Positions 8,215-27,777 of a stretch of DNA of 34,413 nucleotides are shown here, one piece after another. The notes beneath the pieces are model-generated. The model made no database searches, was not told the origin of the DNA, and saw nothing but the letters and a program-made list of their open reading frames with translations. How positions within the stretch are numbered: the first letter of the stretch is position 1; every line of letters begins with the position of its first letter. The stretch is from positions 1-34,413 of the forward strand of contig JAJFIP010000227.1 of NCBI GenBank assembly GCA_021774875.1, written 5' to 3'. This DNA is from Emcibacter sp. GTDB lineage: Bacteria > Pseudomonadota > Alphaproteobacteria > Sphingomonadales > Emcibacteraceae. The position numbers and the translations under genes were made by a program.

Positions 8215-8236
8215 CAGGTTTTTATATAGGCATAAA

Positions 8237-10771: not shown

Positions 10772-10837
10772 CAAAGGGTAATTTGTCTTGGTGGAGATGG
10801 AAGAAGATAATTTCCCACGCGGCAAACAGGAGCGAAT

Positions 10838-12037: not shown

Positions 12038-12097
12038 AAGCTAATCTCGCACAACACATTAGAATATATATGCACGGAAAAAAATAAGGATAAAGGA

Positions 12098-12571
12098 ATG
12101 AATAAAATACTGACTTTTGATGAATATCAGGCACGGATTGGCCAAGAATTGGGAACTTCTGATTGGCTGATAATTGATCAGGATAGGATTAACCAGTTTG
12201 CTGATGCAACCGATGATCATCAATTCATTCATGTGGATCCAAAACAGGCAAAGGATACCGTGTTCGGGGGCACAATCGCGCACGGTTATCTCACCTTGTC
12301 GATGCTGTCAAAATTTTCCGGGGAAACATTTCCCATGATTGAGGGTGTTGTTATGGGTATTAACTACGGCCTGAATAAGGTGAGATTTTTAAATCCTGTC
12401 AAAGAGGGCCAGCAGATACGGGCTCAATTTGTTCTCAAAGATGTTGTGGAAAAAAAAGCAGGCCAATATCTCTTTACTACCGATGTAGTGATAGAAATTA
12501 AAGGTGAGAAAACACCAGCCTGCGTCATTGAATGGTTATCCCTTGCCATAACTGGCGAGCATAAAAACTAA
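12098..12571 (+). CDS. MaoC-like (R)-specific enoyl-CoA hydratase
   Basis: This is a single MaoC/hotdog hydratase domain of 157 residues starting at ATG 12098 behind AAAGGA. The catalytic signature is readable as TDDHQFIH, with D40 and H45 spaced as in PhaJ (D31/H36), followed by GGTIAHGYLTLSML. Such enzymes add water to trans-2-enoyl-CoA to give (R)-3-hydroxyacyl-CoA. The next gene is an MFE2-type SDR that would oxidise that product, so the two act in sequence. FAS or PHA roles are less likely, given the acyl-CoA dehydrogenases directly upstream. Confidence 0.88.
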   Translation: MNKILTFDEYQARIGQELGTSDWLIIDQDRINQFADATDDHQFIHVDPKQAKDTVFGGTIAHGYLTLSMLSKFSGETFPMIEGVVMGINYGLNKVRFLNPVKEGQQIRAQFVLKDVVEKKAGQYLFTTDVVIEIKGEKTPACVIEWLSLAITGEHKN

Positions 12572-12601
12572 GATAAATTTCTAAAAAATAAGGACTAGAT
12601 T

Positions 12602-13528
12602 ATGAGTATTCGATTTGATGAACGTGTTGTTATCGTTACTGGGGGCGGCAATGGACTGGGGCGACATCATTGCCTGCAATTTGCTGAACTCGGTGCCAAG
12701 GTTGTGGTAAACGATCTGGGGGGAGCGTTGGACGGAACCGGCCAGTCTCTGAGTGCCGCCGAAACTGTAGCCGAGGAAATTCGGGCAGCAGGCGGCGATG
12801 CGATTGCAAATGGGGCAAATGTAACCAAACCGGAAGAAGTTCAGGCCATGGTTGATGAAGTTATGGCAAAATGGGGGCGTATTGATGTTCTCGTCAATAA
12901 CGCTGGCATTTTACGCGATAAAACATTCCTGAAAATGGACGTGGATAATTTTAAGGCGGTCGTGGATGTTCATTTAATTGGTGCGGTAAATTGCACCAAA
13001 GCGGTATGGGGAATTATGCGACAACAGAATTACGGTAGAATTGTAATGACAACATCTTCAAGTGGGCTATTTGGAAACTTTGGACAATCCAATTATGGTG
13101 CAGCCAAGATGAGTCTTATTGGTTTGATGAATGTATTATGTCTCGAGTGTAAAAAATATAATATTCATATCAATGCGTTAGCGCCAACGGCGATGACAAG
13201 AATGAATGAAGAACTAGAACCTAAAGGCTCAACATTTACAGAATTGTTAAAGCCTGAGCTTGTCTCACCAGCCGTTTTGTTCCTTTCCGGCGAAGATGCC
13301 CCTAATCGCACGATTTTGGGCGCAGGATGCGGGGCCTATGCGGTAACACATATTTATGAAACCAAGGGTCATTATATTAATAACAGCAAGGTATCACCTG
13401 ATGATATTGCGGCAAACTGGGAATTGATTTCCGCTACAGAAGGCGAGGCTGAACAGGATAATGCGGCTGCTCAATCTATAAAATTTGCCGAATTAGCGGC
13501 GATGAATCTTGGAATCTCGCTCGAATGA
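12602..13528 (+). CDS. (R)-3-hydroxyacyl-CoA dehydrogenase, MFE2/HSD17B4-type SDR
   Basis: This 308-residue SDR resembles the N-terminal domain of peroxisomal multifunctional enzyme type 2. Visible are TGGGNGLG at residues 13-20, the VVNDLGGALDGTG stretch diagnostic of this branch (35-47), NNAG at 99-102, a serine run at 152-154 and Y165/K169. The long C-terminal tail also fits the branch. It would oxidise (R)-3-hydroxyacyl-CoA from the MaoC hydratase with NAD. Related proteins serve sterol side-chain degradation in actinobacteria. It starts at ATG 12602 after AAGGA, ends the operon, and converges on the aminotransferase with 14 bases between stops. Confidence 0.87.
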   Translation: MSIRFDERVVIVTGGGNGLGRHHCLQFAELGAKVVVNDLGGALDGTGQSLSAAETVAEEIRAAGGDAIANGANVTKPEEVQAMVDEVMAKWGRIDVLVNNAGILRDKTFLKMDVDNFKAVVDVHLIGAVNCTKAVWGIMRQQNYGRIVMTTSSSGLFGNFGQSNYGAAKMSLIGLMNVLCLECKKYNIHINALAPTAMTRMNEELEPKGSTFTELLKPELVSPAVLFLSGEDAPNRTILGAGCGAYAVTHIYETKGHYINNSKVSPDDIAANWELISATEGEAEQDNAAAQSIKFAELAAMNLGISLE

Positions 13529-13542
13529 GCAATTCGCGGATC

Positions 13543-14853
13543 CTAGAGCATTTGAAAGGCTTTATCAAAAGCGGATATTGTCTGATCAATATCGGATTGA
13601 CCGTGAGCCGCAGAAACATAAGCCCTCAGACCGGGGATTAAAAAAATTCCCTGTTGCAACAGTAATTGATGAAATCTTTTTGATTTTTCTGTATCTGCAG
13701 CGATTAATTGCTCTGGACGGGTGATGTCTCCCTCGATGCCAAAAAATATCTGGATGAAGGGGCCATCTCCGGTGATTACTCCTTTAATCTTGTATTTTTG
13801 TATTAAGTTATTCAGGGCTTGTCGTAATTGCTTCGAATTTTTATCCATTATGGCTAAAGCATCTGTGTTTTTTAATTTGTTTATTGTTGCTATGACACCT
13901 GCCATGGCAACCGGACTGGCGTTATAAGTTCCACTGTGCCAAACAACTTCAGAGGCAACTTTTGAGCCATGGGGTGCTATATAATCCATATATTTTGTGG
14001 GCCCAGCCACGGCTCCAATAGGGTAACCGCCGCCCATTGCTTTTCCCAATGCGGCCAGATCAGGAATGACACCAGATGTTTTTTGAATGCCGCCCAAATT
14101 TAATCGAAATGCGGTAACGACTTCATCAAAGATTAGTAAAATGCCCTTGTCCTTTGTTATGTTCCGCAAGTTTTCCAGGAATTCTTTTTCTGCCAATAAG
14201 CCATAATTGCCTAACATCGGTTCGACTAGCACCCCGGCAATTTCGTTGCTATGTTCAGCAATAAACCGACAGGCATATTCAGTATCATTGAACGGTAATA
14301 TGCAGGTATCCTGAAGTGTGTTTTTCGTAAGTCCTGCTGAACTGGGTTGGCCTTGGGGATAGTCAGGATCATTTTCTGACAATTTAGTGCTTATCATCAC
14401 ACCGTCATGGGTCCCGTGATAGGCTCCGGAAAATTTAATTATTTTATCCCGTTTCGTAATACCGCGTGCCAGACGAATACAGGTCATGGTGGCTTCGGTG
14501 CCAGAATTGGTAAACCGTACCATCTCGGCACAGGGGATACAGTCACATATAAGATTTATGGCTTCTTCGATTGAAGGGTGGGGCAGGCCATATAATATGC
14601 CACTATTTATCATGCTGTTAGCCAGTGCAGAAGTTATTTCCGGATCATTATGGCCAAATATAAGCGGCCCGTACCCGCAGCAATAATCAATATATTCGCG
14701 GCCTTCCACGTCGGTGATATGGCATCCCCAGGCGTGACTGGCCACAGGCATATTGTCAAAATATTTGGCGTTGCCATCAACACCGCCGGGCAATACGCGA
14801 CTGATTGACTTAAATGCATTGGCATTTGATTTAACGATATGGGATTGGGGCAT
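13543..14853 (-). CDS. Class III PLP aminotransferase, HemL-like
   Basis: This 436-residue PLP enzyme has the fold of glutamate-1-semialdehyde aminomutase. Visible are NSGTEAT at 116-122, SGAYHGTHDG at 142-151, D243 in IFDEV (contacts the pyridine nitrogen), and the Schiff-base lysine K271 in ALGKAMGGGYPIGA. Context argues against heme synthesis: it is co-transcribed with a phosphotriesterase-family hydrolase and carries DYCCGYGPLIFGHND in the part that recalls beta-amino-acid aminotransferases of the same subgroup. A role in deaminating an amine released from the growth substrate is inferred. It begins ten bases after the end of the upstream gene, so translation is likely coupled. Confidence 0.8.
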   Translation of the reverse strand: MPQSHIVKSNANAFKSISRVLPGGVDGNAKYFDNMPVASHAWGCHITDVEGREYIDYCCGYGPLIFGHNDPEITSALANSMINSGILYGLPHPSIEEAINLICDCIPCAEMVRFTNSGTEATMTCIRLARGITKRDKIIKFSGAYHGTHDGVMISTKLSENDPDYPQGQPSSAGLTKNTLQDTCILPFNDTEYACRFIAEHSNEIAGVLVEPMLGNYGLLAEKEFLENLRNITKDKGILLIFDEVVTAFRLNLGGIQKTSGVIPDLAALGKAMGGGYPIGAVAGPTKYMDYIAPHGSKVASEVVWHSGTYNASPVAMAGVIATINKLKNTDALAIMDKNSKQLRQALNNLIQKYKIKGVITGDGPFIQIFFGIEGDITRPEQLIAADTEKSKRFHQLLLQQGIFLIPGLRAYVSAAHGQSDIDQTISAFDKAFQML

Positions 14854-14863
14854 ATTTTGTCTT

Positions 14864-15937
14864 TTAACCTTTAGGGGCTACAAATGTGAATAACCGCTGT
14901 GGTGTATGAATTAGAATTTGATCAATTTCTTGTTGGCTGAAGCCTCTATTTAAGGCTCTGGGGACAATATTTTCCACGATATGCGCATAGCCGCAACCCC
15001 CATACTTCCTGAGATAGATTTTATTGTCACAATCTTGAGAAATTACAATTTGCTTGCCAAATCCCTCGTCAAATAAATATCGCAAGTAACGAAGGCGTTG
15101 AATATCGTTGGGTTGATCTATGTCATCACCATATAAATATTGGGTATGTTCATGACCAAAAAGATCATATTCCAGAACCACTCCCGTAGAAGCTAATTCC
15201 TTCAAGCGGGGATGATCAAAGATTGTTCTGTCTATATGGCACATGATGGCGCGGGTTAGGTCGGCTCCCAGTTTTTCTATGGTATGGACAATTTCAAGCG
15301 GCTCATCCGCATGTCGGCCAGGATGAATCATTAAGAGTGCTCCGGTCATCTGCTGCGCCCTGACAGAGGCTCGTAATATTTTATCTTCAAGTGCCGTTCT
15401 TGGCATACTCAAGCCTACTTCGCCAATAAGGCCGGGTCGTATGTCTGTCCCGTCAGCCCCCGCCCGGAAATCTTGAACAATGGCCTCTGTTATGGCGTCT
15501 TCACTCATATGTCGGACATAATCCGGCAAGCACGGGTCCACATAAAATGAACTGCCCATGATGATGTTAAGTCCCGTTGCTCTGGCAATTCGCCGGAGGC
15601 CTTCCGGGCTTCTGTTAAAACCAATAGATGTTACGTCAACGATCGTACCCCCTCCCAGATTTTTAAAGTGTAAGGCTTCTTCAATTGCCAGATCTTCATC
15701 ATCCAGAATAAAATTATCCCGGTTCCAGTGACCAGCAAAATACATACGGCTTAAGGTCTCCATGGTGAGTGGAGCATTAAAAGTTTTTTTTCGGTCGGGG
15801 TCTTGTGGTTCCATAGACCCGAAGGCATGGGAATAATCCAGCAGCAGATGTTCATGGGTCATTGTTTGGCCCATTTGTTGGGGTTCTATAGGGCCAAGGA
15901 CTGTTTGGACCTTACCTGTAATATCACTGTTTTTCAT
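14864..15937 (-). CDS. Phosphotriesterase-family (PHP/PTER-like) metallohydrolase
   Basis: This amidohydrolase-superfamily protein of 357 residues. ATG 15937 is preferred to GTG 15943 because AGGG lies five bases upstream. Counting from that ATG, the binuclear metal ligands can be read: H28 and H30 in THEHLLLD, E173 in LIGEVG (glutamate instead of the carboxylated lysine of true phosphotriesterase), H205, H234 and D302. The bridging glutamate puts it with PHP/PTER proteins. Activities in the family include ester, lactone, amide and phosphoester hydrolysis, so the reaction is open. There is no signal peptide. It is the first gene of a two-gene operon read away from the LysR pair, with a copy of the shared promoter element 44 bases upstream. 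Confidence 0.85.
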   Translation of the reverse strand: MKNSDITGKVQTVLGPIEPQQMGQTMTHEHLLLDYSHAFGSMEPQDPDRKKTFNAPLTMETLSRMYFAGHWNRDNFILDDEDLAIEEALHFKNLGGGTIVDVTSIGFNRSPEGLRRIARATGLNIIMGSSFYVDPCLPDYVRHMSEDAITEAIVQDFRAGADGTDIRPGLIGEVGLSMPRTALEDKILRASVRAQQMTGALLMIHPGRHADEPLEIVHTIEKLGADLTRAIMCHIDRTIFDHPRLKELASTGVVLEYDLFGHEHTQYLYGDDIDQPNDIQRLRYLRYLFDEGFGKQIVISQDCDNKIYLRKYGGCGYAHIVENIVPRALNRGFSQQEIDQILIHTPQRLFTFVAPKG

Positions 15938-15981
15938 GGGCACCCTCTTGATTAATAATCAAACTACGCATTGCAATAGGT

Positions 15982-16027
15982 TAAGTAAATTTGATATATC
16001 CTATGCCTTGATTTGTTTTTGCCTAAT
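15982..16027 (-). promoter_or_regulatory. Shared 46-bp promoter element, copy 2 (hydrolase-aminotransferase operon)
   Basis: Read on the minus strand it starts ATTAGGCAAA and ends ATCAAATTTACTTA, matching the other copies at all invariant positions with the same total length. The -10-like hexamer is TCAAAT, giving a predicted leader of about 44 bases to the ATG at 15937. It lies in the divergent gap only seven bases from the -35 box of the LysR promoter, so a protein bound here could also affect LysR transcription. Confidence 0.65.
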
Positions 16028-16033
16028 TTTCCT

Positions 16034-16062
16034 TTGACTGCAATGGTTCACAGGCTTACTAT
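16034..16062 (+). promoter_or_regulatory. Sigma-70 promoter of the LysR pair
   Basis: TTGACT (16034-16039) and TACTAT (16057-16062) are separated by exactly 17 bases, close to the sigma-70 consensus. The start point would be near 16069, about 50 bases before the first LysR gene. This promoter differs from the 46-bp element that precedes the catabolic units. Confidence 0.6.
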
Positions 16063-16120
16063 TTTACAAATTTTGTCGAGCCATGTTTTCCGGTATTCGT
16101 GAAATGAGACGAGATAGAGT

Positions 16121-17047
16121 ATGAGATTTACCTTTAGACAGATTGAATATTTTGCTGCTGTAGTAAATAGTGGATCAGTAGCGGCGGCGGCATCTCATTT
16201 GAGAGTTTCACCATCCTCAATTTCAGCGGCAATAACAAATCTGGAAGAAGAATTCAGAGTTCTGTTTTTTGTCCGCCATCATGCACGGGGTTTGTCCCTG
16301 ACAAAAGAAGGCAAACGTTTCATGCTTGAAGCGCGGACAATTTTAAAACAGGTGAATAACCTTAATATTGTTGCCAGCGGTCTTTCGGAGGAGGTGATTG
16401 GGCCTATAGATGTGGGCTGTCTTACAAATATTGCCCCGATTATTATGCCGGAATTATGCACTGATTTTCTGAAAATTTACCCTAATACTCAATTACAGTT
16501 TAGCTTTAAATATGCCTCCCATACAAAATTAATTAACAGCTTACGCTATGGAGAAATTGGACTTGCCTTGACCTATGATCTGGAAATGCCAGATGACATT
16601 TCCTTTACGCCGCTGGTTGAATTTCCACCCTATGTCTTGGTCAGTGAGGAAAATCGCCTTGCAACGAAGAAAAAAATAAAGCTAAGCGAACTTGAAAAAG
16701 AACCATTTATCCAATTAGACAGATCGCCGGCACGGGAATATGATCTTTCGTTATTTTTGCAACAGGGGATTCGACCATACATAGCTTATAAATCATCGCA
16801 ATCAATGTTGGTTCGGACCATGGTGGCCAATGATTTCGGGTTTTCTATTATTAATATCAGACCAAAGGTTGAATGTGCTCTTGATGGCAGCAAATTGGCG
16901 ACGATCCCTCTAGAGGGGAATTATAATCATTTAACCCTTGGTATTGCTATGGTCAAACACCCTTTTTTGAGTACATCAGTAAAAGTTTTTAAGGATTTTT
17001 GTTGTGATAATATTCGAAAAAACTCAGTCCCTGGTGCTTTGGTATAA
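16121..17047 (+). CDS. LysR-family transcriptional regulator (copy 1)
   Basis: This 308-residue regulator has an N-terminal winged helix-turn-helix (FRQIEYFAAVVNSGSVAAAA, then SPSSISAAITNLEEEF, residues about 5-46) and a two-lobed effector domain. Its DNA-binding half is very like that of the next gene, so the two arose by tandem duplication. LysR proteins usually activate a neighbouring operon when a pathway intermediate binds. It is divergent from the hydrolase-aminotransferase operon and sits mid-cluster, so control of these genes is likely. The ribosome site is weak (GAGACGAG). Confidence 0.92.
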   Translation: MRFTFRQIEYFAAVVNSGSVAAAASHLRVSPSSISAAITNLEEEFRVLFFVRHHARGLSLTKEGKRFMLEARTILKQVNNLNIVASGLSEEVIGPIDVGCLTNIAPIIMPELCTDFLKIYPNTQLQFSFKYASHTKLINSLRYGEIGLALTYDLEMPDDISFTPLVEFPPYVLVSEENRLATKKKIKLSELEKEPFIQLDRSPAREYDLSLFLQQGIRPYIAYKSSQSMLVRTMVANDFGFSIINIRPKVECALDGSKLATIPLEGNYNHLTLGIAMVKHPFLSTSVKVFKDFCCDNIRKNSVPGALV

Positions 17048-17079
17048 TGGTTCTCTCATTAATAAGAAGTTGATAAATA

Positions 17080-18021
17080 ATGCATTTTACTTTTAGACAA
17101 CTTGAATATTTTGTCGCCGTTGCCGCCACCGGAACGGTAGCAGGTGCGGCGGAAAGGATGAATATCTCGGCACCCTCAATTTCAGTTGCGATCACTCAAT
17201 TGGAAAAAGAGTTCATGGTCAAACTTTTCGCACGGCATCATGCCAAGGGCTTGACAATGACAGAGGAAGGGGAGCGATTTCTGATAGAGGCACAAACGAT
17301 ACTTAAACAGGCAAATTCTCTGGATAATGCTACAAGATTTATGTCGGAAGAAGTCGGCGGCACGATTGAACTGGGGTGCCTAAGCACCATAGCCCCAATT
17401 ATCGTGCCAAAATTATGTAAGGGATTTCTAAAACATTATCCGGACATAAAATTTACTTTCCATGATGCCCCCCATGCGGAGCTGATTAATAAATTACATT
17501 TAGCGGATATTGGGATTGCTCTGACATTTTGTCTAAAAATTCCCAAAGATATAATATTCGCACCGCTAGTTGCCTTGCCGCCTTATGTGATGATCAGTGC
17601 GAACAATCCTCTTGCACAGAAAGAATCCTTGAGTTTGAATGATCTGAAAGATACATCATTCATTCAAATTGGCACGTCCCCCATGAAAGAATATGCCATG
17701 TCAATTTTCCATAAAGAAAAAACCAAGCCCAAAGTCCTGTATAAATCACCCCATTCATCTATTCAAACTTATGTGGCTCATGATTATGGTTATACATTTA
17801 CTTATATCAGACCAAAATTAGAGCAGAATCTGGATGGCAGCAGGCTGGTAACTATTCCGCTAAAAGGAACATTTGATCCCTTGATAATGGGAACGGCCAT
17901 GGTGAATAAACAATTTCAGAACCCTGCCATCAAGGCATTTCACGATTATTGCTGCCAGCATATTTCAGAAAAATCTATTCCCGGAGCTTTGGCGCCGGGG
18001 GCATCAGGTTTGGTGAATTAG
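17080..18021 (+). CDS. LysR-family transcriptional regulator (copy 2)
   Basis: This is the tandem paralogue of the preceding gene, 313 residues, starting 32 bases after its stop. The helix-turn-helix (FRQLEYFVAVAATGTVAGAA, then SAPSISVAITQLEKEF) and the HHAKGLTMTEEG wing match copy 1. Effector-domain residues differ more (for example TFCLKIPKDI against TYDLEMPDDI), so the two may sense different ligands or form a heteromer. The C-terminus has a short extra tail. Its TAG stop at 18019-18021 overlaps the TAA stop of the convergent thiolase gene. Confidence 0.92.
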   Translation: MHFTFRQLEYFVAVAATGTVAGAAERMNISAPSISVAITQLEKEFMVKLFARHHAKGLTMTEEGERFLIEAQTILKQANSLDNATRFMSEEVGGTIELGCLSTIAPIIVPKLCKGFLKHYPDIKFTFHDAPHAELINKLHLADIGIALTFCLKIPKDIIFAPLVALPPYVMISANNPLAQKESLSLNDLKDTSFIQIGTSPMKEYAMSIFHKEKTKPKVLYKSPHSSIQTYVAHDYGYTFTYIRPKLEQNLDGSRLVTIPLKGTFDPLIMGTAMVNKQFQNPAIKAFHDYCCQHISEKSIPGALAPGASGLVN

Positions 18022-19202
18022 GCAACTTCAAATAAGCCAGCCATCCCTTGCCCTCCGCCGATACACATTGTGATGACGACAAATCTCTCACCGCGCCGCC
18101 TGGCTTCAATAAGTGCATGGCCCACAAGTCGTGCGCCTGTCATACCAAAGGGATGGCCAATGGATATGCCGCCGCCATTGACGTTTAACCTTTCATTGGG
18201 AATACCAAGCTGGTCTCGGCAATATATCACTTGAACAGCAAATGCTTCATTAAGCTCCCATAATCCAATATCTTCTATCTTCAGATTATGCCGTTCCAGT
18301 AATTTTGGTATGGCATAAACCGGGCCAATACCCATCTCATCTGGCTCACATCCCGCGACAACCATGCCGCGGTAAATACCAAGAGGATGCAGTCCTCTAC
18401 GCTCCGCTAACTTTGAGTCCATAACAACACATGCTGAGGCACCATCTGAAAGTTGACTTGAATTTCCGGCTGTAATGCATCCGCCCTCGCCCATAACTGG
18501 TTTGAGGCCTGCCAATCCTTCCAGTGTTGTATTGGGGCGATTACAATCATCTTTCAAAATACTAAATTCTTGCTCAGCAGTGATGCCTGTATCTTTATCC
18601 GTGACAAGCATTTTAGTAGAGAACGGTACAATTTCATCCTCAAATTTGCCTTCTGCTTGTGCTTTGGCTGTTCGTTGTTGGCTTTGCAGGCTAAAAATAT
18701 CCTGTTGTTCACGGCTTATATTATAACGTTCCGCAACAATCTCCGCTGTTTGTATCATGGAATAATAAACCCCGGGATACAGTTTTTTAAGCTGCTCATC
18801 TTCTAACCGGAAATTATTGAAATATTTAGTATTGGTTAGTGAAATAGATTCTAACCCGCCAGCAACCATAATATCGACTCCATCGACAATAATTCTATGC
18901 GCCGCTGAAGAAATTGCCTGCAATCCTGATGAACAGAAACGGTTGATTGTACTCCCCCCGACACTCACCGGAAATCCAGCACTTAAAGCAGCCTGTCTGG
19001 CAATATTTCCGCCTGTGGCACCCTCCTGACCGCCACAGCCAAGGATAATATCCTCCACTTCTTCTCCTTCGAGACCTGCCCTCTTTACCGCATGCTTGAA
19101 AACATGTCCGCCCAAAGGGGCACCATGCGTGTTGTTCAATCCTCCTCGAAAAGATTTTGTCATTCCTGTTCTTGCTGTTGAAACAATAACTGCTTCGCGC
19201 AT
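18018..19202 (-). CDS. Thiolase (acetyl-CoA acyltransferase)
   Basis: This 394-residue thiolase has the full catalytic set: C90 in NRFCSSGLQAI, H350 in SIGHPFGMTG and C380 in MCIGGGQG. Degradative thiolases split 3-ketoacyl-CoA into acetyl-CoA and a shortened acyl-CoA. The sequence AGGLESISLT and the length fit acetyl-CoA C-acetyltransferases of beta-oxidation. It lies 108 bases downstream of a broken acetyltransferase gene on the same strand, and its best candidate promoter is the 46-bp element beyond that gene. It may serve the (R)-specific branch, as the second thiolase is paired with a FadB-type enzyme. Confidence 0.9.
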   Translation of the reverse strand: MREAVIVSTARTGMTKSFRGGLNNTHGAPLGGHVFKHAVKRAGLEGEEVEDIILGCGGQEGATGGNIARQAALSAGFPVSVGGSTINRFCSSGLQAISSAAHRIIVDGVDIMVAGGLESISLTNTKYFNNFRLEDEQLKKLYPGVYYSMIQTAEIVAERYNISREQQDIFSLQSQQRTAKAQAEGKFEDEIVPFSTKMLVTDKDTGITAEQEFSILKDDCNRPNTTLEGLAGLKPVMGEGGCITAGNSSQLSDGASACVVMDSKLAERRGLHPLGIYRGMVVAGCEPDEMGIGPVYAIPKLLERHNLKIEDIGLWELNEAFAVQVIYCRDQLGIPNERLNVNGGGISIGHPFGMTGARLVGHALIEARRRGERFVVITMCIGGGQGMAGLFEVA

Positions 19203-19310
19203 AATTTTTCCCTTTTTATGAGTAGTTGTTCATGGATGCGGGGTTAAGCATCCTATTTGGGGCTACGTCATTTTGATTTTTTTGGTATTTTGATATTTCC
19301 ATATGCCTGA

Positions 19311-19946
19311 TTATTCATGTGTGTTCAGGTCTTTGTACATGCGACATGATGGCCCGATATTTGCGGCTTCCTGTAATTTTGGTACATATGTCTCGGTGAG
19401 TATTTCCATCCCCATTTTCTGATAAAATTTTACCGCCGGTTGATTAGAAACAGCATCAAGCTGGATCGTGCGACAGTTCATTTTTTTTGCCTGTTCAAAA
19501 GCACACTGCAGCAGTTTCGCGCCAATGCCTTTTCCCTGCATATCTTCTGCGACTGACAGAAAATTTACATAATATGCACTTCGTGGAATTTTTGGTGACA
19601 GGAAAGACGTTCACCGCAGAACATTTTTCATATGGGACATCAATTCATTATTGATGAATGGTTCGGTGATGCCTGCTGTGATAAGAAGCTGTTCTTGATA
19701 TGTAACGGAACCATAGCCTATCAAAACGCCGACGACCTTATCCCCTTCAAGGGCGATAGTGCCAAACTTATGAGAATATACAGTATTATTCCTTTGCCAG
19801 CATGCCGTAACGATGTTGTGGCTTACGTCCAGTTTATTTTTATAGATGTAACTAATGGTATCCGGCGCCGTTTGGGGTAAGAGGTCAGCAACTTCTGAAG
19901 CGTGCTTAGGCTCACCTTTAACGATGTTTATATCAATCTTGTTCAT
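19311..19946 (-). pseudogene. GNAT N-acetyltransferase gene interrupted by an in-frame TGA
   Basis: One reading frame spans the whole interval but carries TGA at 19611-19613 after the codons for MKNVLR. The frame then resumes without a shift, and the translation past the stop (SPKIPRSAYYVNFLSVAEDM) joins directly to the acetyl-CoA-binding motif QGKGIGAKLL and a normal GNAT C-terminus. Intact, it would be about 211 residues. An internal ATG at 19541 could give a short fragment of 76 residues, but that alone lacks half the fold. Other genes here end in TGA, so the codon is a true stop. Either a fresh nonsense mutation or a sequence error explains it. A 46-bp element points at its start. Confidence 0.75.
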
Positions 19947-20035
19947 AGTTTTTTATCTACATTATTGGTGGATAGTAAGCACGCCAATGGCTGGAAATAG
20001 CTTTTATTTCTGTGACTCTAGTAAGAGTTATTGAG

Positions 20036-20081
20036 TATGTAAATTAGATAGATATGGCCCGTTGGTTCAGTTTTCGCTAAG
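20036..20081 (-). promoter_or_regulatory. Shared 46-bp promoter element, copy 3 (GNAT remnant and thiolase)
   Basis: On the minus strand it begins CTTAGCGAAA, carries TGAACC at positions 13-18 and ends TCTAATTTACATA, one of the best matches to the consensus. The predicted start is near 20036, about 89 bases before the GNAT frame. TTACTAG follows at the same distance as in copy 1. The thiolase gene downstream has no element of its own and probably depends on this one. Confidence 0.7.
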
Positions 20082-20151
20082 TCTGATTTGCTCGGTTCCA
20101 TAGGATGATACCAGTAATATAAGATAAAAACAGGGGGTCAACTGAAACAAG

Positions 20152-20197
20152 ATTAGGTAAAAGTGAAGCAAGGTGACATTTAAATATATTTTACATT
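20152..20197 (+). promoter_or_regulatory. Shared 46-bp promoter element, copy 4 (TonB receptor)
   Basis: It begins ATTAGGTAAA, has TGAAGC at positions 13-18, and ends TATATTTTACATT. All invariant positions of the family are kept. The -10-like hexamer TATATT is the closest of the seven to the sigma-70 consensus. The predicted leader is about 96 bases and contains the inverted repeat at 20234-20261. Confidence 0.65.
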
Positions 20198-20233
20198 GTT
20201 TGCCCAATAGCCAACACTCTAGGTCCATTCAAA

Positions 20234-20261
20234 ATACTCTGAATTTTTACTGACAGAGTAT
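20234..20261. repeat. Perfect 8-bp inverted repeat in the TonB receptor leader
   Basis: ATACTCTG (20234-20241) and CAGAGTAT (20254-20261) are exact reverse complements around a 12-base spacer, 32 bases before the receptor start codon. If the transcript begins near 20197, this is a hairpin in the mRNA leader. Otherwise it is a two-fold-symmetric operator. It is not found before the other genes. Confidence 0.6.
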
Positions 20262-20293
20262 CGGTAAAGAATTAAAATATAGGTGAGGATAGG

Positions 20294-22528
20294 ATGTTAA
20301 ATAATTCCAAAAATAAATACATAATAAAAAAGCAGTTATTGTCTGCGTGTTTGGTTGCTGTATTGGGAGCTTACGGTATTCCTGCATTAGCTGCTGTTGA
20401 AGCTGATGATGAATTTGCTATTGATGAGATTATAGTGACGGCGACAAAAAGAGAAACAACACTACAGGATGTCGCATTAAGTATCTCGGTTCTAAGTGAA
20501 GAAATGATCTCTAATTCTGGTATTACATCAGTCCAGAATCTGAGCTCAATGGTAGCAGGCTTAGATGCAAATAATCAGGGCCCAGGGTTATCTAATCTTA
20601 CCATAAGGGGCATTACAAATACTTCTGATAGTTTTTTCGTTAATTCCACCGTAGGTTTTTATGTGGATGAAATACCTGTTGCAGGAGATCCGTTAAGGTC
20701 GCCTGAATTGTCACTTTTTGACGCACAAAGGGTTGAAGTATTACGTGGTCCGCAAGGAACACTTTTTGGCGATGGTTCTTTGGGGGGCACCATAAGGGTT
20801 ATTACCAATAAGCCTGACTCGAAAGAATTCAGTGGCCGTGCGGTAGGAACCTATTCATCATGGGATGGCGGGGGTGATAATTATGAATTAAAAGGTGTTA
20901 TCAATATTCCTGTGATAGAGGATAAGCTGGCATTTAGAGTATCTGGTAGTTACAAGGATGATGGTGGATATATTGATAATGAATTACCCGGCACTTTAAT
21001 AGAAGATATTACAGATATCAATACATACGAATCCAAATCTGTAAGAGCCGCCCTTCGGGCAACGCCAAATGAGGATTTAACAATTGACCTGGTTTATAGA
21101 TACTCAGATCTTGATGTGAATGACATACGGGAAGAACAATCCCCAAGTGTTAAGAATAGAAATATATTAGAACCTAATACTAATGTGATGAATTCCGGTG
21201 CTTTGACGATTGAATATAATTTGGGATGGGCTTCTTTTGTATCAGCTTCTGCATATACGGACATCGTTCAAACTAATGCTCATGAGATAACTGATTTTGT
21301 CATTACACCATTTTTCCCCGGTATGTGTCCTTCAGGTTTTGGCTTTTCCTTATGCGCATCATCATTTGATTTCATGGACGATATACAAACCTTTACTCAG
21401 GAAATGCGTCTTGTTTCTTCTGGAGATGGTCCCCTTAATTGGACTATTGGTGGTTTCTACCGAAATGACGAACGTCATGAATTTGAAGATCTTTTCACAT
21501 TTCCTGATGATATCAGCCCGTTATTTTTTGGTGGTGTGAAATCGCTTGATATAGATTTTGTGCAAAGTGCTAATCAATATGCTGCTTTCGGTGAGTTCGA
21601 TTATCAGATGGGGGATATAAATTTACTGGTTGGTGGTCGTTATTATAAGGAGACTAAAACGTCAACTAACGTCACTGGCGGTGCCCTGGTTGCTCCTGCC
21701 AATAGTACCACAGACGATAGTAATGAAGTGTTTATTCCAAAAGCTGTAATAAAATATACACCGAGCTCGGATTTTACAGCATATGTGTCATATTCTGAAG
21801 GATTTCGGGCAGGTGGTGTGAATGCCTTGGCCTCTGCTGCAAAAGCTTTTGACCCGTCCAGTAACATTCCGGATGGTTATGGCCCAGAAGAATTGAGAGC
21901 TTGGGAATTGGGTTTAAAGAAAATTTGGATGGATGGTCGCGTTCGGACGAACCTCTTTCTTTACCGCAATTCATGGAAGGACATGATTCAGGATTTCATA
22001 GATGTAGGTAATTTTGGTTTTACGGATAATGCAGGTGATGCGGTGAGTAAAGGGTTTGAGATTGAACTGGCTGCTACCCCGATGGATGGTCTGAATATTG
22101 CGTTTAATATTTCCCATAATGATGCGACATTCAGCGATGATATTTTTGATCCCGTTTCTGGTGCTCAATTAGTCATAGGGGGTAACTTAATTCCCGGAAT
22201 GGCCAGATGGTCCTATAATTCAACTCTGGAATATCGTTATCCTATTGGAGAAGTTGAGGGACTGTTTTGGGCGAGTTTCTCTCATCGAGGAAGGACATTC
22301 TCTGAGGTTGCTAATAGTGAAATTTCCAAAACAGATAATCTGGACATCTTAAACCTGAGAATTGGTGTGGCGGGTGATCAATGGGGTGTATATCTATTTG
22401 GAAATAACATGACTCAGGAAAGGGGTGCAGTATTAGCTTTTCCACCTCTAAATCCCTCGTTTAATGCGGTTGATGCAACTTTTGTTTCACCACGGGAACT
22501 TGGCGTAGAATTAAGATTTAATTTCTAA
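20294..22528 (+). CDS. TonB-dependent outer-membrane receptor
   Basis: This 744-residue receptor starts at ATG 20294. An N-terminal signal peptide ends near ALA at 31-33, followed by a TonB box DEIIVTATK (44-52), the plug domain (LTIRGITNT, VEVLRGPQGTLFGDGSLGGTIRVITNKP near 150-180) and a beta-barrel ending in the aromatic residue of LRFNF. This class imports substrates too large or scarce for porins. Because it sits within a catabolic cluster with no siderophore genes, it probably imports the organic growth substrate and not iron; that is an inference. It is expressed from its own copy of the shared element and followed by a hairpin before the serine hydrolase. Confidence 0.93.
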   Translation: MLNNSKNKYIIKKQLLSACLVAVLGAYGIPALAAVEADDEFAIDEIIVTATKRETTLQDVALSISVLSEEMISNSGITSVQNLSSMVAGLDANNQGPGLSNLTIRGITNTSDSFFVNSTVGFYVDEIPVAGDPLRSPELSLFDAQRVEVLRGPQGTLFGDGSLGGTIRVITNKPDSKEFSGRAVGTYSSWDGGGDNYELKGVINIPVIEDKLAFRVSGSYKDDGGYIDNELPGTLIEDITDINTYESKSVRAALRATPNEDLTIDLVYRYSDLDVNDIREEQSPSVKNRNILEPNTNVMNSGALTIEYNLGWASFVSASAYTDIVQTNAHEITDFVITPFFPGMCPSGFGFSLCASSFDFMDDIQTFTQEMRLVSSGDGPLNWTIGGFYRNDERHEFEDLFTFPDDISPLFFGGVKSLDIDFVQSANQYAAFGEFDYQMGDINLLVGGRYYKETKTSTNVTGGALVAPANSTTDDSNEVFIPKAVIKYTPSSDFTAYVSYSEGFRAGGVNALASAAKAFDPSSNIPDGYGPEELRAWELGLKKIWMDGRVRTNLFLYRNSWKDMIQDFIDVGNFGFTDNAGDAVSKGFEIELAATPMDGLNIAFNISHNDATFSDDIFDPVSGAQLVIGGNLIPGMARWSYNSTLEYRYPIGEVEGLFWASFSHRGRTFSEVANSEISKTDNLDILNLRIGVAGDQWGVYLFGNNMTQERGAVLAFPPLNPSFNAVDATFVSPRELGVELRFNF

Positions 22529-22568
22529 GATATATTTTTATGTCTTGATCAGAAATAAGATTTTCGAA

Positions 22569-22601
22569 CAGAAGTCTGCTCATCTCTTGAGTGGACTTTT
22601 G
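22569..22601 (+). terminator. Stem-loop, possible terminator or mRNA processing site
   Basis: A 14-bp stem with three G-U wobbles (arms 22569-22582 and 22588-22601) closes a five-base loop. Four T fall in the descending arm and pair with an A-rich stretch. There is no long T-run after it, so termination may be partial. It separates the receptor gene from the serine hydrolase gene, which has no shared element of its own and probably relies on read-through. Confidence 0.5.
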
Positions 22602-22646
22602 CTCGTTATGGACTGAAATACGAAAGAAAGTTAACCAGGCTTAGGT

Positions 22647-23921
22647 ATGAAAAAATTAATTTTGTTTTTAGTGCTGATTATCACGCCTTCTTTTGCTGAT
22701 ATACAAATGATTATTGTTCGGGCAGATGATCTTGATGCAACCGCTGATAGACATGTTATGCAAGGTTATCCTCCACCAGAAGATATGTTAGTGAATTCTG
22801 GTAACTGGCTTTTATCTCCTTATAACAGATGGTCTTTTCAGAATACAGAAATGCTGTTTCCAACTCGCACAATTTCACATGGTAAGCAGGCACAAGAGAA
22901 ACTGCCAAAGGCAAATCAGAAATATATTCAGGCTTTCTCTAACATGAAATTTTCTATTGATATGACTTTTGATAGCTTCTTGGAAGATAACTATGTGGAT
23001 GGAATCATGGTGCTAAAAGATGGTGCCGTTGTGGTTGAACGATATGCCAATAGTCAAACTCAGGATACACGCCATATTATGTTTTCTGTAACAAAATCCT
23101 TCACAGGTCTGTTGATGGAAATATTGATTAGTGAAGGTATCATCGATGAGAGCCGCACCATTGCCAGTTATGTGACAGAATTAAAGAATAGTGCTTATGG
23201 TGACGCCACAATTCGTCAGGCTATGGATATGGAGGTCAGTCTGATTTTTTCCGAGGATTATGATGATCCTCACTCTGATATTGCAAAATTTAAATATGCG
23301 GCTGCCATGGGGAGACCCCCAAACGGAATTAAAGCCACTTCTTCGCTATATGATTTTCTCCCCCAATTAAAAAAAGATACTCAGCATGGGGAGAAATTTC
23401 AGTATGCCTCTGCCACAACGGAAGTCTTGGGGTGGGTGATGACTCGCGCAACAGGCTTGGGGTTATATGAATTGATTGAAGACAAGATTTATCAGCATAT
23501 AAATGCCAAAAAAGACAGCTATATTCTCTTAGACCGTAAAGGTAAAGCCTTGGCCGCTGGCGGTTTGAATATAACATTACCTGACCTCGCCCGTTTTGCC
23601 CTTCTCGTTCATAATGATGGGGTGGTGGCGGGGCAACAAGTAATCCCAAAGTTGGTAATATCTAAACTTAAACGTGGTGGAAATATTAGTCATTTTCCCA
23701 ACAGCGATGGTGTAAGATGGTCATATAAGAGCCAGTGGTATTTTGATGCGGAAGACAATAGTATGTTGGCATTGGGAATACATGGGCAGTCCATTTATAT
23801 AGGTCTGGATAGTGGTGTAGTCGTGGTAATCCAGTCCTCATGGCCAAATGCCAGCTATGGAAAAGCAGGATATAGAAGATATTTCTTTCATAAAGGCGTC
23901 AAGGCAGCTCTTGAAAAGTAA
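22647..23921 (+). CDS. Exported serine hydrolase, class C beta-lactamase/NylB-like
   Basis: This 424-residue serine hydrolase has an N-terminal signal peptide (MKKLILFLVLIITPSFA). The SxxK motif is S147-V-T-K150, the second motif is Y253-A-S255 in YASATTEVLGW, and the third is H379-G-Q. The arrangement resembles 6-aminohexanoate-dimer hydrolase (NylB) and related esterases more than true beta-lactamases. It would act in the periplasm, on an amide or ester carried in by the TonB receptor. The family is sure; the substrate is inferred only from its neighbours. Confidence 0.85.
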   Translation: MKKLILFLVLIITPSFADIQMIIVRADDLDATADRHVMQGYPPPEDMLVNSGNWLLSPYNRWSFQNTEMLFPTRTISHGKQAQEKLPKANQKYIQAFSNMKFSIDMTFDSFLEDNYVDGIMVLKDGAVVVERYANSQTQDTRHIMFSVTKSFTGLLMEILISEGIIDESRTIASYVTELKNSAYGDATIRQAMDMEVSLIFSEDYDDPHSDIAKFKYAAAMGRPPNGIKATSSLYDFLPQLKKDTQHGEKFQYASATTEVLGWVMTRATGLGLYELIEDKIYQHINAKKDSYILLDRKGKALAAGGLNITLPDLARFALLVHNDGVVAGQQVIPKLVISKLKRGGNISHFPNSDGVRWSYKSQWYFDAEDNSMLALGIHGQSIYIGLDSGVVVVIQSSWPNASYGKAGYRRYFFHKGVKAALEK

Positions 23922-23940
23922 ATTGCATTTCTGCAAATTG

Positions 23941-23986
23941 CTTAGGAAAAACAATACTCAAGTTGCTCTTATCTCTAATTTACATA
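23941..23986 (+). promoter_or_regulatory. Shared 46-bp promoter element, copy 5 (enoyl-CoA hydratase/C45/symporter)
   Basis: It begins CTTAGGAAAA and ends TCTCTAATTTACATA; the last 15 bases are identical to those of copy 6. The -10-like hexamer is TCTAAT. The predicted leader before ATG 24060 is about 73 bases. It lies 19 bases after the stop of the serine hydrolase. Confidence 0.7.
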
Positions 23987-24059
23987 TCTTTTTGGATTAA
24001 TTAGGTTTGATTATGGGAGTTATGTCGCCCGCTATATATTGATAATCAAAGGAATGATA

Positions 24060-24872
24060 ATGGATTATGAAGATATTCTGGTTGAAGATCGTGGTAAGGC
24101 AACATGGATTACTCTCAATCGTCCAGATGTGATGAATGCCATTCGACCTCAAACTCACAGGGAAATAATCAATGCTTTCCAACAGGCTGATCAATCTCCC
24201 GATACCCATTTTATCGTTTTAACAGGTGCTGGTCGGGCATTTTGTGCCGGCGATGATTTCAAGGAAGTTTTCTTGGCAGAAAAATCTGTAGTGGGAACAG
24301 AGAGCGCGATTAAATTTGACCGTTATAATAAAGAAATTGGGGCTGCTACACCAATTGTTATGGCCTTAGCCAACTGTACAAAACCCACCATTGCAGTTGT
24401 TAATGGGGTCGCTGTTGGCATAGGAATGGATCTTGCCTTATTATGCGATATGAGAATAGCCGCAACAACAGCTTCTATGGGTTCCTTTTATGTTCGGCGC
24501 GGGTTTGCAGGAACGGTAGCCAGCACAGTAATTTTGCCACAAATTATTGGCCTATCCCGCGCTATGGAGTTAATTTTATCAGGTGAAAAAATTGACGGTG
24601 TGGAAGCAGAGCGGTTAGGTATTGTATCAAGGGCAGTCGCCCCAGAGGAACTGGATGCTGCTGCGGATGAATTGATTGAGAAACTGTCTTGGGGAGCACC
24701 ATTGGCGCAAAAGGCGATTAAACGAATTGTAAAAAAAGGGTTAGGTGTCGATCTTCAATCAATGGAAGAATATACCCGATTATTATCCGACCCGCTTTGG
24801 GATACTGAAGATCATACAGAAGGTGTCATGTCATATGTGGAAAAAAGAAAACCATCTTTTAAAGCGCAATAA
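24060..24872 (+). CDS. Enoyl-CoA hydratase/isomerase-family protein lacking both catalytic glutamates
   Basis: This 270-residue crotonase-fold protein starts at ATG 24060; AAAGGA lies a proper distance upstream, and the TTG at 24039 is rejected. The oxyanion-hole motif CAGDD is at 62-66 and GVAVGIGMD at 116-124. Hydratases have a glutamate where D124 stands, and a second glutamate where this protein reads FYVRRGFAGT (143-152). It also lacks the aspartate used by PaaG-type isomerases, having T152 instead. The overall pattern is closest to the PaaG isomerase group. It may be an isomerase, a ring-opening hydrolase or a dehalogenase-like member with another active-site layout. It is first in an operon with the C45 enzyme and symporter. 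Confidence 0.82.
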   Translation: MDYEDILVEDRGKATWITLNRPDVMNAIRPQTHREIINAFQQADQSPDTHFIVLTGAGRAFCAGDDFKEVFLAEKSVVGTESAIKFDRYNKEIGAATPIVMALANCTKPTIAVVNGVAVGIGMDLALLCDMRIAATTASMGSFYVRRGFAGTVASTVILPQIIGLSRAMELILSGEKIDGVEAERLGIVSRAVAPEELDAAADELIEKLSWGAPLAQKAIKRIVKKGLGVDLQSMEEYTRLLSDPLWDTEDHTEGVMSYVEKRKPSFKAQ

Positions 24873-24906
24873 ACAAATATAGTTAAAAATAATTGAAAGT
24901 TAAAGA

Positions 24907-26091
24907 ATGACACTAGAAATCGAGGAAAAAATCATAGCCGGTGGAGGACCGGAAGATAATATGATTGTTCGACATCTCGTACTTCGTGGCAGCCAGTTTG
25001 ATATAGGCAAACATATGGCTGCTCTTGCCATTAATCGTTATGAATATAGCGCACCATTATCAGTTGATCCCTTAATGTCAGATGTTAAGCGTGAATATAT
25101 TCAAAAAAAATGGCCAACGCATTATTTGCGAATGCAAGGGGCAGCGGCGGCTTTTAACCTTGATATATTAGACTCTGACTATGATTTCTATGAACTGTAT
25201 TATTCTCCGGGAACGCCGCCGCCGGGCTGTTCCAATATTTATTATCCAAGAACGGCCAATGGCCATGCAATGCTGAGCAGGAATTATGATCTGTCAACGG
25301 GTGTTGATCCCGTTTCCACCAGAGAACCGTACTTAATGGAAGTATATCCTGATGAAGGATATTCGTATCTTTCTATGTGTGCTTATGACTTGTTGGGGGG
25401 GACGACAGACGGGATAAATTCAGAAGGCTTGAGCGTTGCCCTGTTAGCTGACCTTGAAACCGCATTATCGGTTACGGACCCGGAGCATCCTGCGGGGATA
25501 TATGATTATGAAGGAACCATGTTTTCGGGCCGGATGGCCGCAGGAGTAAGCGAGATGCAGGTTTCTCGTTTTATCCTGGAAACCTGTAAAAATGTAGATG
25601 AAGCAAAGCGGGCCTTGTTAACCCTATTGTCTCATTACCGGGTAATACCATTGCATTATATCATTGGTGATCGCCATGGAAATGGCTTTGTTTTTGAAGG
25701 CTCGATGCAGGGCCATTTGCCAAGGTTCATTGATTGTAATGGTTCTGCTCTCCCCGTAACTAATCACCCAATCAGGGGGCGTAAAGTTACAAAGCATGAA
25801 TTGATTGATGAATCTGTCGGTCGGTTAGAGGAGCTGAAACGCAGAATAAAGACCAATGATGGTCCTATAGATTTTCCTCATATTAAAGCCAATGCAGAAA
25901 GTGTTGCCGCTGTGTCGCCAGTTGGTGAAGGACAATATGCGGGTGAAGTCGTGTCCAGAACATTGTGGCATAGTTTTTATGACCTGAATGAGCGATCACT
26001 AATAATAAACTATTATTTGCATGATACAGGTGACGAAAACTCCCCTGTGGTTCATCGCACCTCTGATCTTCATTTCAATTTGGAAATTTGA
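24907..26091 (+). CDS. C45-family Ntn acyltransferase/amidohydrolase
   Basis: This 394-residue protein resembles acyl-CoA:6-aminopenicillanate acyltransferase proenzymes. The self-cleavage site is visible as PPPGCSN with C108 as the new N-terminal nucleophile, so a short N-terminal chain and a long catalytic chain are expected. Further marks are LSRNYDLS and DLLGGTTDGINSEGLSVALL. Known family members transfer or hydrolyse acyl groups on amines. Here, next to a hydratase-family gene and a transporter, it probably cleaves or exchanges an N-acyl bond in the cytoplasm. No signal peptide is seen. Penicillin biosynthesis is excluded by context. Confidence 0.85.
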   Translation: MTLEIEEKIIAGGGPEDNMIVRHLVLRGSQFDIGKHMAALAINRYEYSAPLSVDPLMSDVKREYIQKKWPTHYLRMQGAAAAFNLDILDSDYDFYELYYSPGTPPPGCSNIYYPRTANGHAMLSRNYDLSTGVDPVSTREPYLMEVYPDEGYSYLSMCAYDLLGGTTDGINSEGLSVALLADLETALSVTDPEHPAGIYDYEGTMFSGRMAAGVSEMQVSRFILETCKNVDEAKRALLTLLSHYRVIPLHYIIGDRHGNGFVFEGSMQGHLPRFIDCNGSALPVTNHPIRGRKVTKHELIDESVGRLEELKRRIKTNDGPIDFPHIKANAESVAAVSPVGEGQYAGEVVSRTLWHSFYDLNERSLIINYYLHDTGDENSPVVHRTSDLHFNLEI

Positions 26092-26184
26092 GAACTTGGG
26101 GAAAAATTATTGATGTATTTTTTATCACAGGGCCTACCTCAATATTATCTATAGAGAATTTTGACCGAAAGCAGAAGTAACATT

Positions 26185-27540
26185 ATGTCGGATAATAAGT
26201 CGGTAAATCTAAGTACCATTATTCATTATGGCCTGCCCGCCACGGGCATCGGATTTATGATGTTCCTTGGCAGTGTATATTTGATGAAATATTCCACTGA
26301 CGTACTGTCAATTTCACCTTTGATTATAGGGGGCATCGTTTTTATATCAAGGATTCTGGATGCGATTACTGACCCCTTGGTGGGATATTACAGTGACAAG
26401 TCCACCAGCAAAATGGGTCGGAGAAGGCCCTGGATATTAGCATCGTCCATACCGATTTTTATCTTTTTTTATATGATGTGGTGTCCGCCTGCTGTTCTCT
26501 CTGGATATTTGCTAATACTCTGGATGGGAACGGGCGTCATATTATTCTATACCGCTGCGACATTGTTTATTATTCCTCATTTTTCTTTGGGCGCGGAATT
26601 GAGTGATAGTTATCATGTCAGAACCAAAATATTTGGTTTTCGTCACGGATTTGATCAGCTTGGCTATTTATTGGCGGTTGCAGTAGGTTACTTTCTTTTT
26701 CAGGCTAGTAACCCAAGTGAATTAATGACCAGTATTACTTTATTAGGTGGCGGGACGGTTGCCATAACGATTATTATTATGGTAGTTTTTGTCAAGGAAG
26801 CACCAGCGTCACATAAAATAAAACGAGAGAAAAGTCCCTACCAGTCTTATAAAAATGTCTTTGCCAATAAATATGCCCTACGCTTGGTTATCGTATATTT
26901 ATTTGAAATTACAGGTATGATTTTTGCCTCCTCTTTCACGCCCTATATTTCTGAATATATATTAAAAACACCTGATCAAACATCTCTCTACTTGCTCATA
27001 TATATGGCTGGCTCATTTCTTGGCATACCTATCTGGGTCTATCTCTCGCGTTATTTTGGCAAGAAAAAACTATTATTTTATGCCCTTAATTTTTTGGGCC
27101 TGACGTTTGGGTCTGCTATTTTTCTACAAGAAGGAAGCATCATACATATGTATGTGATACTTTTTCTTCTTGGAATTGGTGCCGGAAGCCCAGGAGTATT
27201 GGTTGTTTCCATTCAAGCTGATATCATTGATTATGGTGAATGCCTAACTGGCAAACGTACGGAAGGGGCCTATTTTGCTGTATGGAATTTTGCCATGAAA
27301 TCCGCTACTGGTATAACTTTCCTACTTGTTGGAATTATACTGGAAACTTCAAGTTTTATCCCAAATATTGATCAGTCTGATGCAACAAAATTATGGATGC
27401 TGATAGGGTTTTCAGCAATTCCAGCACTTTGTTATTTAATCGCCGCCGGAATTTTTAAAGGCTTTAATCTGGATGAACAGCAGTATTTGAGAATTCGAAA
27501 AATCCTTGACTATAGAAAAATAAAACTCGGGGTAATTTAG
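26185..27540 (+). CDS. GPH-type cation symporter (MelB-like major facilitator)
   Basis: This integral membrane protein of 451 residues has about twelve hydrophobic segments. ATG 26185 is used; a TTG at 26161 in frame is possible. The family signature RILDAITDPLVGYYSD runs from residue 56, followed by GRRRPW at 78-83; D59 and D63 correspond to the cation-site aspartates of MelB. GPH carriers import sugars, glucuronides or other polar solutes with sodium or protons. In this cluster it would carry the substrate or a periplasmic hydrolysis product across the inner membrane. Solute identity is unknown. Confidence 0.88.
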   Translation: MSDNKSVNLSTIIHYGLPATGIGFMMFLGSVYLMKYSTDVLSISPLIIGGIVFISRILDAITDPLVGYYSDKSTSKMGRRRPWILASSIPIFIFFYMMWCPPAVLSGYLLILWMGTGVILFYTAATLFIIPHFSLGAELSDSYHVRTKIFGFRHGFDQLGYLLAVAVGYFLFQASNPSELMTSITLLGGGTVAITIIIMVVFVKEAPASHKIKREKSPYQSYKNVFANKYALRLVIVYLFEITGMIFASSFTPYISEYILKTPDQTSLYLLIYMAGSFLGIPIWVYLSRYFGKKKLLFYALNFLGLTFGSAIFLQEGSIIHMYVILFLLGIGAGSPGVLVVSIQADIIDYGECLTGKRTEGAYFAVWNFAMKSATGITFLLVGIILETSSFIPNIDQSDATKLWMLIGFSAIPALCYLIAAGIFKGFNLDEQQYLRIRKILDYRKIKLGVI

Positions 27541-27544
27541 ACTG

Positions 27545-27590
27545 CTTAGCTAAAAATGAACGCGAGTAGCGACTTTCTCTAATTTACATA
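27545..27590 (+). promoter_or_regulatory. Shared 46-bp promoter element, copy 6 (thiolase/FadB/amidase)
   Basis: It begins CTTAGCTAAA, has TGAACG at positions 13-18 and ends TCTCTAATTTACATA. It starts four bases after the symporter stop. The predicted leader is long, about 187 bases, and holds a hairpin at 27617-27639 and two copies of TAGCCGCT (27631 and 27711). Confidence 0.7.
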
Positions 27591-27616
27591 CGTAATCAAA
27601 TTCAGTTAGTTATTGC

Positions 27617-27639
27617 TATCGGCTAGATAATAGCCGCTA
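27617..27639 (+). other. Short hairpin in the thiolase leader
   Basis: CGGCTA (27620-27625) pairs with TAGCCG (27631-27636) around the loop GATAA; after one mismatch two more bases pair. A T-rich stretch follows from 27643. It could be a weak terminator for the symporter gene or a leader structure, as it lies downstream of the predicted start at about 27590. Confidence 0.35.
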
Positions 27640-27777
27640 TGAATTTATTTGATTTTATTTAGATCCGTAAATTATGAAATATTTCAATAATATATTTAGA
27701 ATCAATATATTAGCCGCTTATGTGTAATTTTCCCAGTGGATTTTATTATAGATAATTGCGGATAAGAAAAGGTAATA

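Follow-up and report, generated by a model that had tools for sequence, protein, structure and literature searches.

6-Oxocamphor hydrolase (CamK), a member of the crotonase fold, uses a catalytic His/Asp set, and methylmalonyl-CoA decarboxylase (MMCD) gives a catalytic role to His66 and Tyr140. We take Δ3-Δ2-enoyl-CoA isomerase (ECI) to carry a single Glu at the hydratase Glu164 column, the triad of the dienoyl-CoA isomerase 1dci to be Asp176/Glu196/Asp204, and Gly141 to be the number of the oxyanion-hole residue in the rat hydratase. For hydration, the available part of a study on rat MFE1 describes Glu103 as activating water and Glu123 as exchanging the C2 proton, with E123A inactive as a hydratase, and states that the counterpart of Glu144 activates water and forms a hydrogen bond to the 3-oxygen (PMC10988713); we matched Glu103 and Glu123 to Glu144 and Glu164 by their order and by established usage. 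In the accessible text on DmdD, E121A (the Glu144 equivalent) abolished activity and E141A (the Glu164 equivalent) lowered kcat/Km to approximately 1/88,000 (PMC3660561), and in that on AcuH both glutamates were essential (PMC5651017). PaaG (1,2-epoxyphenylacetyl-CoA isomerase) has a single catalytic acid, consistent with isomerases (PMC4498308), which is numbered D136 in PMC9493321, according to the sections available of these papers. For C-C bond chemistry, Asp163 of MenB is essential and Ser161 binds the ligand (PMC3637252), and EchA20 is a ring-opening enzyme that clusters with MenB (PMC5380842), again as given in the accessible portions.

The window, i.e., the whole stretch of 34,413 nucleotides that was analyzed, contains a gene for a crotonase-fold acyl-CoA enzyme at positions 24060 to 24872 of the plus strand. 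The open reading frame is complete, stop-free, and 270 residues long, and an AGGA at 24050 to 24053 lies six bases 5′ of its ATG. Its product matched Pfam ECH_1 at 2.2e-51 (175 bits, gathering cutoff 27), and its AlphaFold2 model, made with 40 aligned sequences, had a mean pLDDT of 91.1, with low confidence mostly at residues 71 to 100 or so. Compared with solved crotonases by VIA-align, the model gave Z values of 30 to 34, the nearest folds including 3-hydroxypropionyl-CoA dehydratase (5zai, Z 33.8) and PaaG (6sl9/3hrx, Z 33), followed by the rat hydratase (1dub, Z 32.3) and dienoyl-CoA isomerase (1dci, Z 30.4). The ECH_1 score and the fold place the protein in the crotonase superfamily and, together with the pLDDT, indicate that the reading frame did not arise by chance. 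No NCBIfam cutoff was reached among the best 25 of 71 families, with PRK09245 at the top (190 versus 354 bits). Judged by its residues, the protein is a member of a known superfamily with a catalytic set that appears to differ from the known types.

The comparison with ECH, PaaG, and BadI proposed in the initial annotation was carried out as sequence columns. Residues 114 to 163 aligned gaplessly with Escherichia coli PaaF, FadB, CaiD, and PaaG, and D124 (codon at 24429 to 24431), Y144 (24489 to 24491), and T152 (24513 to 24515; all on the plus strand) fell at the columns of the hydratase Glu144, the hydratase Glu164, and the PaaG Asp, respectively. A script check agreed with the numbering given earlier for these residues, the FYVRRGFAGT stretch being residues 143 to 152. 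At columns 124/144/152 the window protein reads D/Y/T, compared with E/E/G in PaaF, E/E/D in CaiD, T/F/D in PaaG, E/P/N in MMCD (ScpB), V/G/G in MenB, V/G/P in BadI, and D/E/D in a dienoyl-isomerase homolog. The reference residues were located as E109/E129 in PaaF, E119/E139 in FadB, E111/E131 in CaiD, D144 in PaaG, H66/Y140 in ScpB, and S161/D163 in MenB. The hydratase glutamates had been reported as missing, and this holds for the Glu164 column, occupied by Y144, but not for the Glu144 column, which keeps a carboxylate in the form of an Asp; the acid in a canonical catalytic position that had been named as evidence against that report is thus present at one position, D124. The reported absence of the PaaG Asp was confirmed, since T152 stands at its column.

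The fold is likewise intact, as had been claimed, but of the oxyanion-hole motifs the counterpart of rat Gly141 is replaced by I121. Relatives carry W, Y, M, or I at this column, and the backbone NH of I121 can still serve the oxyanion hole. The other oxyanion-hole position, in the AGDD loop (D65-D66 codons at 24252 to 24257, plus strand), holds a further acid, D65, which aligns with His66 of ScpB; D or E is common there (69 of 81 rows from the best 80 of 531 relatives). The protein is not of the MMCD type, as the columns of His66 and Tyr140 are D65 and G151. A placement of MMCD Tyr140 in the T152 column was ruled out, Tyr140 lying one column earlier.

Relatives were collected by scanning genome contigs with a three-sequence alignment, and the best 80 of 531 relatives placed the window protein in a clade of at least nine members. 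The other eight (L024 to L031) come from MAGs of the Dehalococcoidia, Myxococcota, and Pseudomonadota and from a single unassigned bacterium; they are 39 to 50% identical to it, and each carries D124, so the residue pattern is not an isolated error. Within the best 80 of 531 relatives, D65, D66, D124, R146, and R147 (the last two encoded at 24495 to 24500, plus strand) are invariant in all nine clade rows, column 144 is aromatic throughout (Phe in eight, Tyr in the window protein only), and column 152 is T in two, S in three, and E in four. The invariance of D124, D65, and R146-R147 over nine members from distant phyla, within this same set of relatives, argues against a non-catalytic or barely active protein, i.e., a pseudoenzyme or a partner subunit of a mixed crotonase complex; the missing acids at two of the three columns and a long end branch of the window protein (0.86 to 0.89 in the trees) would fit such a protein, which we nevertheless regard as very unlikely.

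A sister group reads E124-F144-D152 in 32 of 33 rows, with L036 (D-F-D) as the exception, and D124 without an acid at columns 144 and 152 also occurs in L057, L062, L078, L079, and L100, all within the best 80 of 531 relatives. L057, L078, and L079 are Chloroflexota crotonases with D124 as the sole acid of the three columns and a PaaG-Asp loop shortened by two to three residues. L058, L070, and L083 have Asn at 124, Phe at 144, and a deletion of the 152 loop, so that all three columns lack an acid. No match to the window crotonase at an E value of ≤1e-55 was found in 39 related genomes, 15 of the same genus included. With up to six candidates scored per genome, there was none among 395 genomes at the order level (≤1e-50) or 397 at the phylum level (≤1e-48), and 2 of 384 genomes at the class level had a match (≤1e-50). 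No plasmid match was found at 1e-35, and a single-protein search for related loci returned 146 pattern matches, none of them confirmed.

Phylogeny was examined with a careful tree of 39 chosen rows and a quick tree of 103 rows; the latter omits five sequences of the source genome that are partial or fused (L014, L015, L016, L018, and L020) and four matches without loci. In the 39-row tree, supports were 99/95 for the window protein with L024 and L025, 100/99 for the five L026-L031 rows used, 100/98 for seven sister rows, and 93/94 for all 15 rows of the window clade and the sister group. Monophyly of the D124-type rows had a support of just 61/22, and the three groups branch in no well-supported order. 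Outside the hydratase, CaiD/dienoyl-isomerase, MMCD, and BadI/MenB rows, the remaining 27 of the 39, PaaG among them, all carry F, W, or Y at column 144, and 24 of the 27 have an acid at column 124 and/or 152; this group is weakly supported (82/61) and merges with BadI/MenB once the three columns are dropped. On the 39-row tree, from which L062 and L100 are absent, the state with D124 as the sole acid calls for three changes or more, whether the columns are included or excluded.

The earlier view that the protein is not a standard hydratase is upheld by the missing Glu164 counterpart and by the AU test, in which grouping of the window clade with three hydratase rows was rejected (log-likelihood down 43, p 0.0019). 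With the enoyl-CoA hydratases (ECH, PaaF, FadB, and 3-hydroxypropionyl-CoA dehydratase) it shares the fold, the oxyanion-hole motifs, and an acid at the Glu144 column, but this acid is Asp and not Glu, no Glu occupies the Glu164 column, a side chain replaces Gly at 152, and D65 replaces Ala. Fast ordinary hydration is unlikely because published Glu164-equivalent mutants are essentially dead as hydratases. On the other hand, a hydratase or dehydratase of a special substrate might use D124 to activate water and Y144, D65, or T152 in place of the missing glutamate, and the family annotation, the top PDB match (3-hydroxypropionyl-CoA dehydratase, 36% identity), the one hydratase acid retained as Asp, and the hydroxyl of Y144 at the Glu164 column in the window member all speak for it. 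We consider this reading unlikely in view of the rejected grouping, the Phe found in place of Y144 in the eight other clade members (best 80 of 531 relatives), and the effect of losing the Glu164 equivalent, which, in the portions of the reports available, left DmdD approximately 88,000-fold less active and AcuH and MFE1 E123A inactive. EchA19 was tried as a yardstick, and its cutoff was reached by none of 142 genomes. The window does contain a FadB-type domain with both Glu residues (GGGFEI and GMPEVNLG) and a MaoC-domain protein, in line with the two hydratases named in the initial annotation. That these would make a third plain hydratase superfluous, as was argued there, carries little weight, since the source genome has 24 matches to the crotonase at an E value of ≤1e-5, the crotonase itself counted.

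The reading that we prefer, with a probability of roughly 0.42, is that of a putative acyl-CoA enzyme working with one carboxylate, D124 being the sole acid at the three usual columns, and its reaction is most likely the isomerization of a double bond. An isomerase is favored because one-carboxylate members of the fold are typically isomerases and because the tree neighbors, PaaG and the sister group, combine an aromatic side chain at column 144 with an acidic one at column 152. The invariance of D124 in the clade (best 80 of 531 relatives), the pattern of the 27 rows, the rejected grouping with hydratases, and the dienoyl-reductase-like SDR gene found next to sister-group crotonases also speak for it. 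E. coli PaaG (29% identity) has the fold (Z about 33), the aromatic residue at the Glu164 column, and a single pocket acid in common with the window protein, but the positions are reversed: Asp at 152 and Thr at 124 in PaaG, Asp at 124 and Thr at 152 here. The TIGR02280 score was 153 bits versus a cutoff of 345. The Δ3,5-Δ2,4-dienoyl-CoA isomerase was compared through its homolog L109, which aligns with 1dci; its Asp176 column is shared as D124, whereas its Glu196 and Asp204 correspond to Y144 and T152. The Glu of ECI at the Glu164 column is absent as well, Y144 being in its place. Against an isomerase, both of the proven proton-shuttle positions, the Glu164 column and the PaaG Asp, are missing as judged from the alignment, and the role known for the Glu144 column is to activate water, not to transfer the C2 proton.

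For such an isomerase we infer the following steps, from fold to substrate. The acyl-CoA would be bound with its thioester polarized in the oxyanion hole by the backbone NH groups of D65 and I121, and D124, with no second carboxylate at the three columns, would shuttle a proton, assisted by the T152 hydroxyl. The double bond would thereby be shifted in an unsaturated acyl-CoA, itself presumably made from an acylated compound that the cell imports. The single acid would thus face the pocket from a third wall, that of the Glu144 column, in contrast to the Glu164 column used by the enoyl-CoA isomerases or the Asp column of PaaG.

Isomerization or C-C bond hydrolysis had been offered as the unusual reaction, and isomerization is the better of the two, as the motif Ser and Asp of a BadI/EchA20-type hydrolase are absent. 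The window protein has the fold in common with BadI, MenB, and EchA20 (the last compared only via MenB and BadI sequences), but the Ser and Asp of their GSxDxG motif (S161 and D163 in MenB) are F149 and G151 here, as aligned with four BadI rows over the TIGR03210 cutoff and E. coli MenB, and BadI and MenB carry Val at column 124. BadI-like ring cleavage would therefore need other residues. A C-C lyase or hydrolase could instead use D124 to act at C3 of a 3-oxo- or 3-hydroxyacyl-CoA, by activating either water or the 3-hydroxyl group, so that the C2-C3 bond breaks with the enolate held in the oxyanion hole. The role of the Glu144 equivalent in activating water and hydrogen-bonding the 3-oxygen, in the part of PMC10988713 available, agrees with this, as do the lack of an acid for the C2 proton and the AU test, which did not reject shared ancestry of the window clade with BadI/MenB (log-likelihood down 6, p 0.208). 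However, given the replaced Ser and Asp and given that no ring-cleavage partner genes were identified adjoining the crotonase, we find C-C cleavage rather improbable.

If D124 alone supports catalysis, it would be a third place in the crotonase pocket for one working carboxylate. The literature searched, outside which lie many subscription papers, described no crotonase in which Asp stands at the Glu144 column while both other columns lack an acid. It is possible but doubtful, from the residues alone, that the carboxylate migrated round one pocket until a crotonase arose that relies on the acid of the Glu144 column alone and carries out a reaction new to the superfamily. The series, in its inferred order, would run from D152 alone (PaaG) through E124 with D152 (sister group) and D124 with E152 (L027 to L030) to D124 with S or T152 (the window protein, L024 to L026, and L031), and a separate route would have led to D124 alone with the shortened loop (L057, L078, and L079). 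The relatives cover most acid combinations at the two columns, so that, if D124 alone does support catalysis, a switch of function is testable by a two-residue swap. The name enoyl-CoA hydratase may be wrong for many of the genes that bear it; the window protein, as things stand, is one of many uncharacterized members of the superfamily.

The crotonase gene lies in a series of plus-strand genes: a TonB-dependent receptor (20294 to 22528; NCBIfam TonB receptor models, scores under their cutoffs), a β-lactamase-family serine hydrolase directly 5′ of the crotonase (22647 to 23921; Pfam PF00144, 4e-26), a C45 family autoproteolytic acyltransferase/hydrolase 34 bases 3′ of it (24907 to 26091; NCBIfam NF040521, 101 bits with a cutoff of 85, and Pfam AAT), and a GPH/MFS_2 family transporter (26161 to 27540; Pfam MFS_2, 3.8e-82). 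The operon of crotonase, C45, and transporter genes claimed earlier agrees with their same-strand order and with gaps of 34 and 69 to 93 bases, but promoter and terminator signals did not stand out: promoter-like sites numbered 17 versus 18.7 expected and terminator-like sites 5 versus 4.3 expected, no better than chance. Because these scans were uninformative, the case for the operon is one of strand and spacing. The receptor, β-lactamase-family hydrolase, C45 enzyme, and transporter suggest the uptake and breakdown of an imported acylated or amide compound. A β-lactamase-family gene was found within 3 kb in three of the eight clade loci (3′ of the crotonase) versus 2 of 72 others (best 80 of 531 relatives), a count biased by a model built partly from those three hits, by the close kinship of L028 and L029, and by several short flanks. 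The clade members are true relatives that differ from the window protein by the E at column 152 in four of them and by their surroundings, as no C45 match was found in the flanking DNA of L024 to L031.

In a genome of the same family (G016), the stretch from 394 to 18305 of L115 holds a C45 homolog (46% identity) in a cluster with DUF1611, an enolase-superfamily protein, two GPH-like transporters, a CoA ligase, an acyl-CoA dehydrogenase, CoA-transferases (one of family III), a TonB receptor, and a β-lactamase-family gene. No crotonase was found in this stretch, and its GPH and β-lactamase genes are not close to those of the window. Clusters of this type may serve to break down a peptide-like substance or an amide.

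The stretch from 19200 to 27700, which covers the TonB receptor through the transporter, has a GC content of 39.9%, versus 43.4% in 1 to 19200 and 45.4% from 27700 to the end, and 17 further crotonase loci in the source genome average 48.8%. It may be an acquired module because of this difference and because no close crotonase relative was found in 15 same-genus genomes. Elsewhere, the window encodes SDRs, thiolases, the MaoC protein, and the FadB-type protein according to family scans, and by their translations other genes appear to encode components of a CoA carboxylase as well as acyl-CoA dehydrogenases. One of the SDRs (4738 to 5550, plus strand) matched over its cutoff as a PRK07576-type protein, near 2,4-dienoyl-CoA reductases, and a homolog of it (53 to 58%) lies directly upstream of a sister-group crotonase in five Parvibaculaceae loci and in L021. 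Within the CoA-catabolic region, a class-III aminotransferase and a phosphotriesterase-family gene form a pair at 13543 to 15943 of the minus strand. Tandem LysR regulators with alike beginnings lie at 16121 to 18021, flanked by this pair and by an opposite-strand thiolase.
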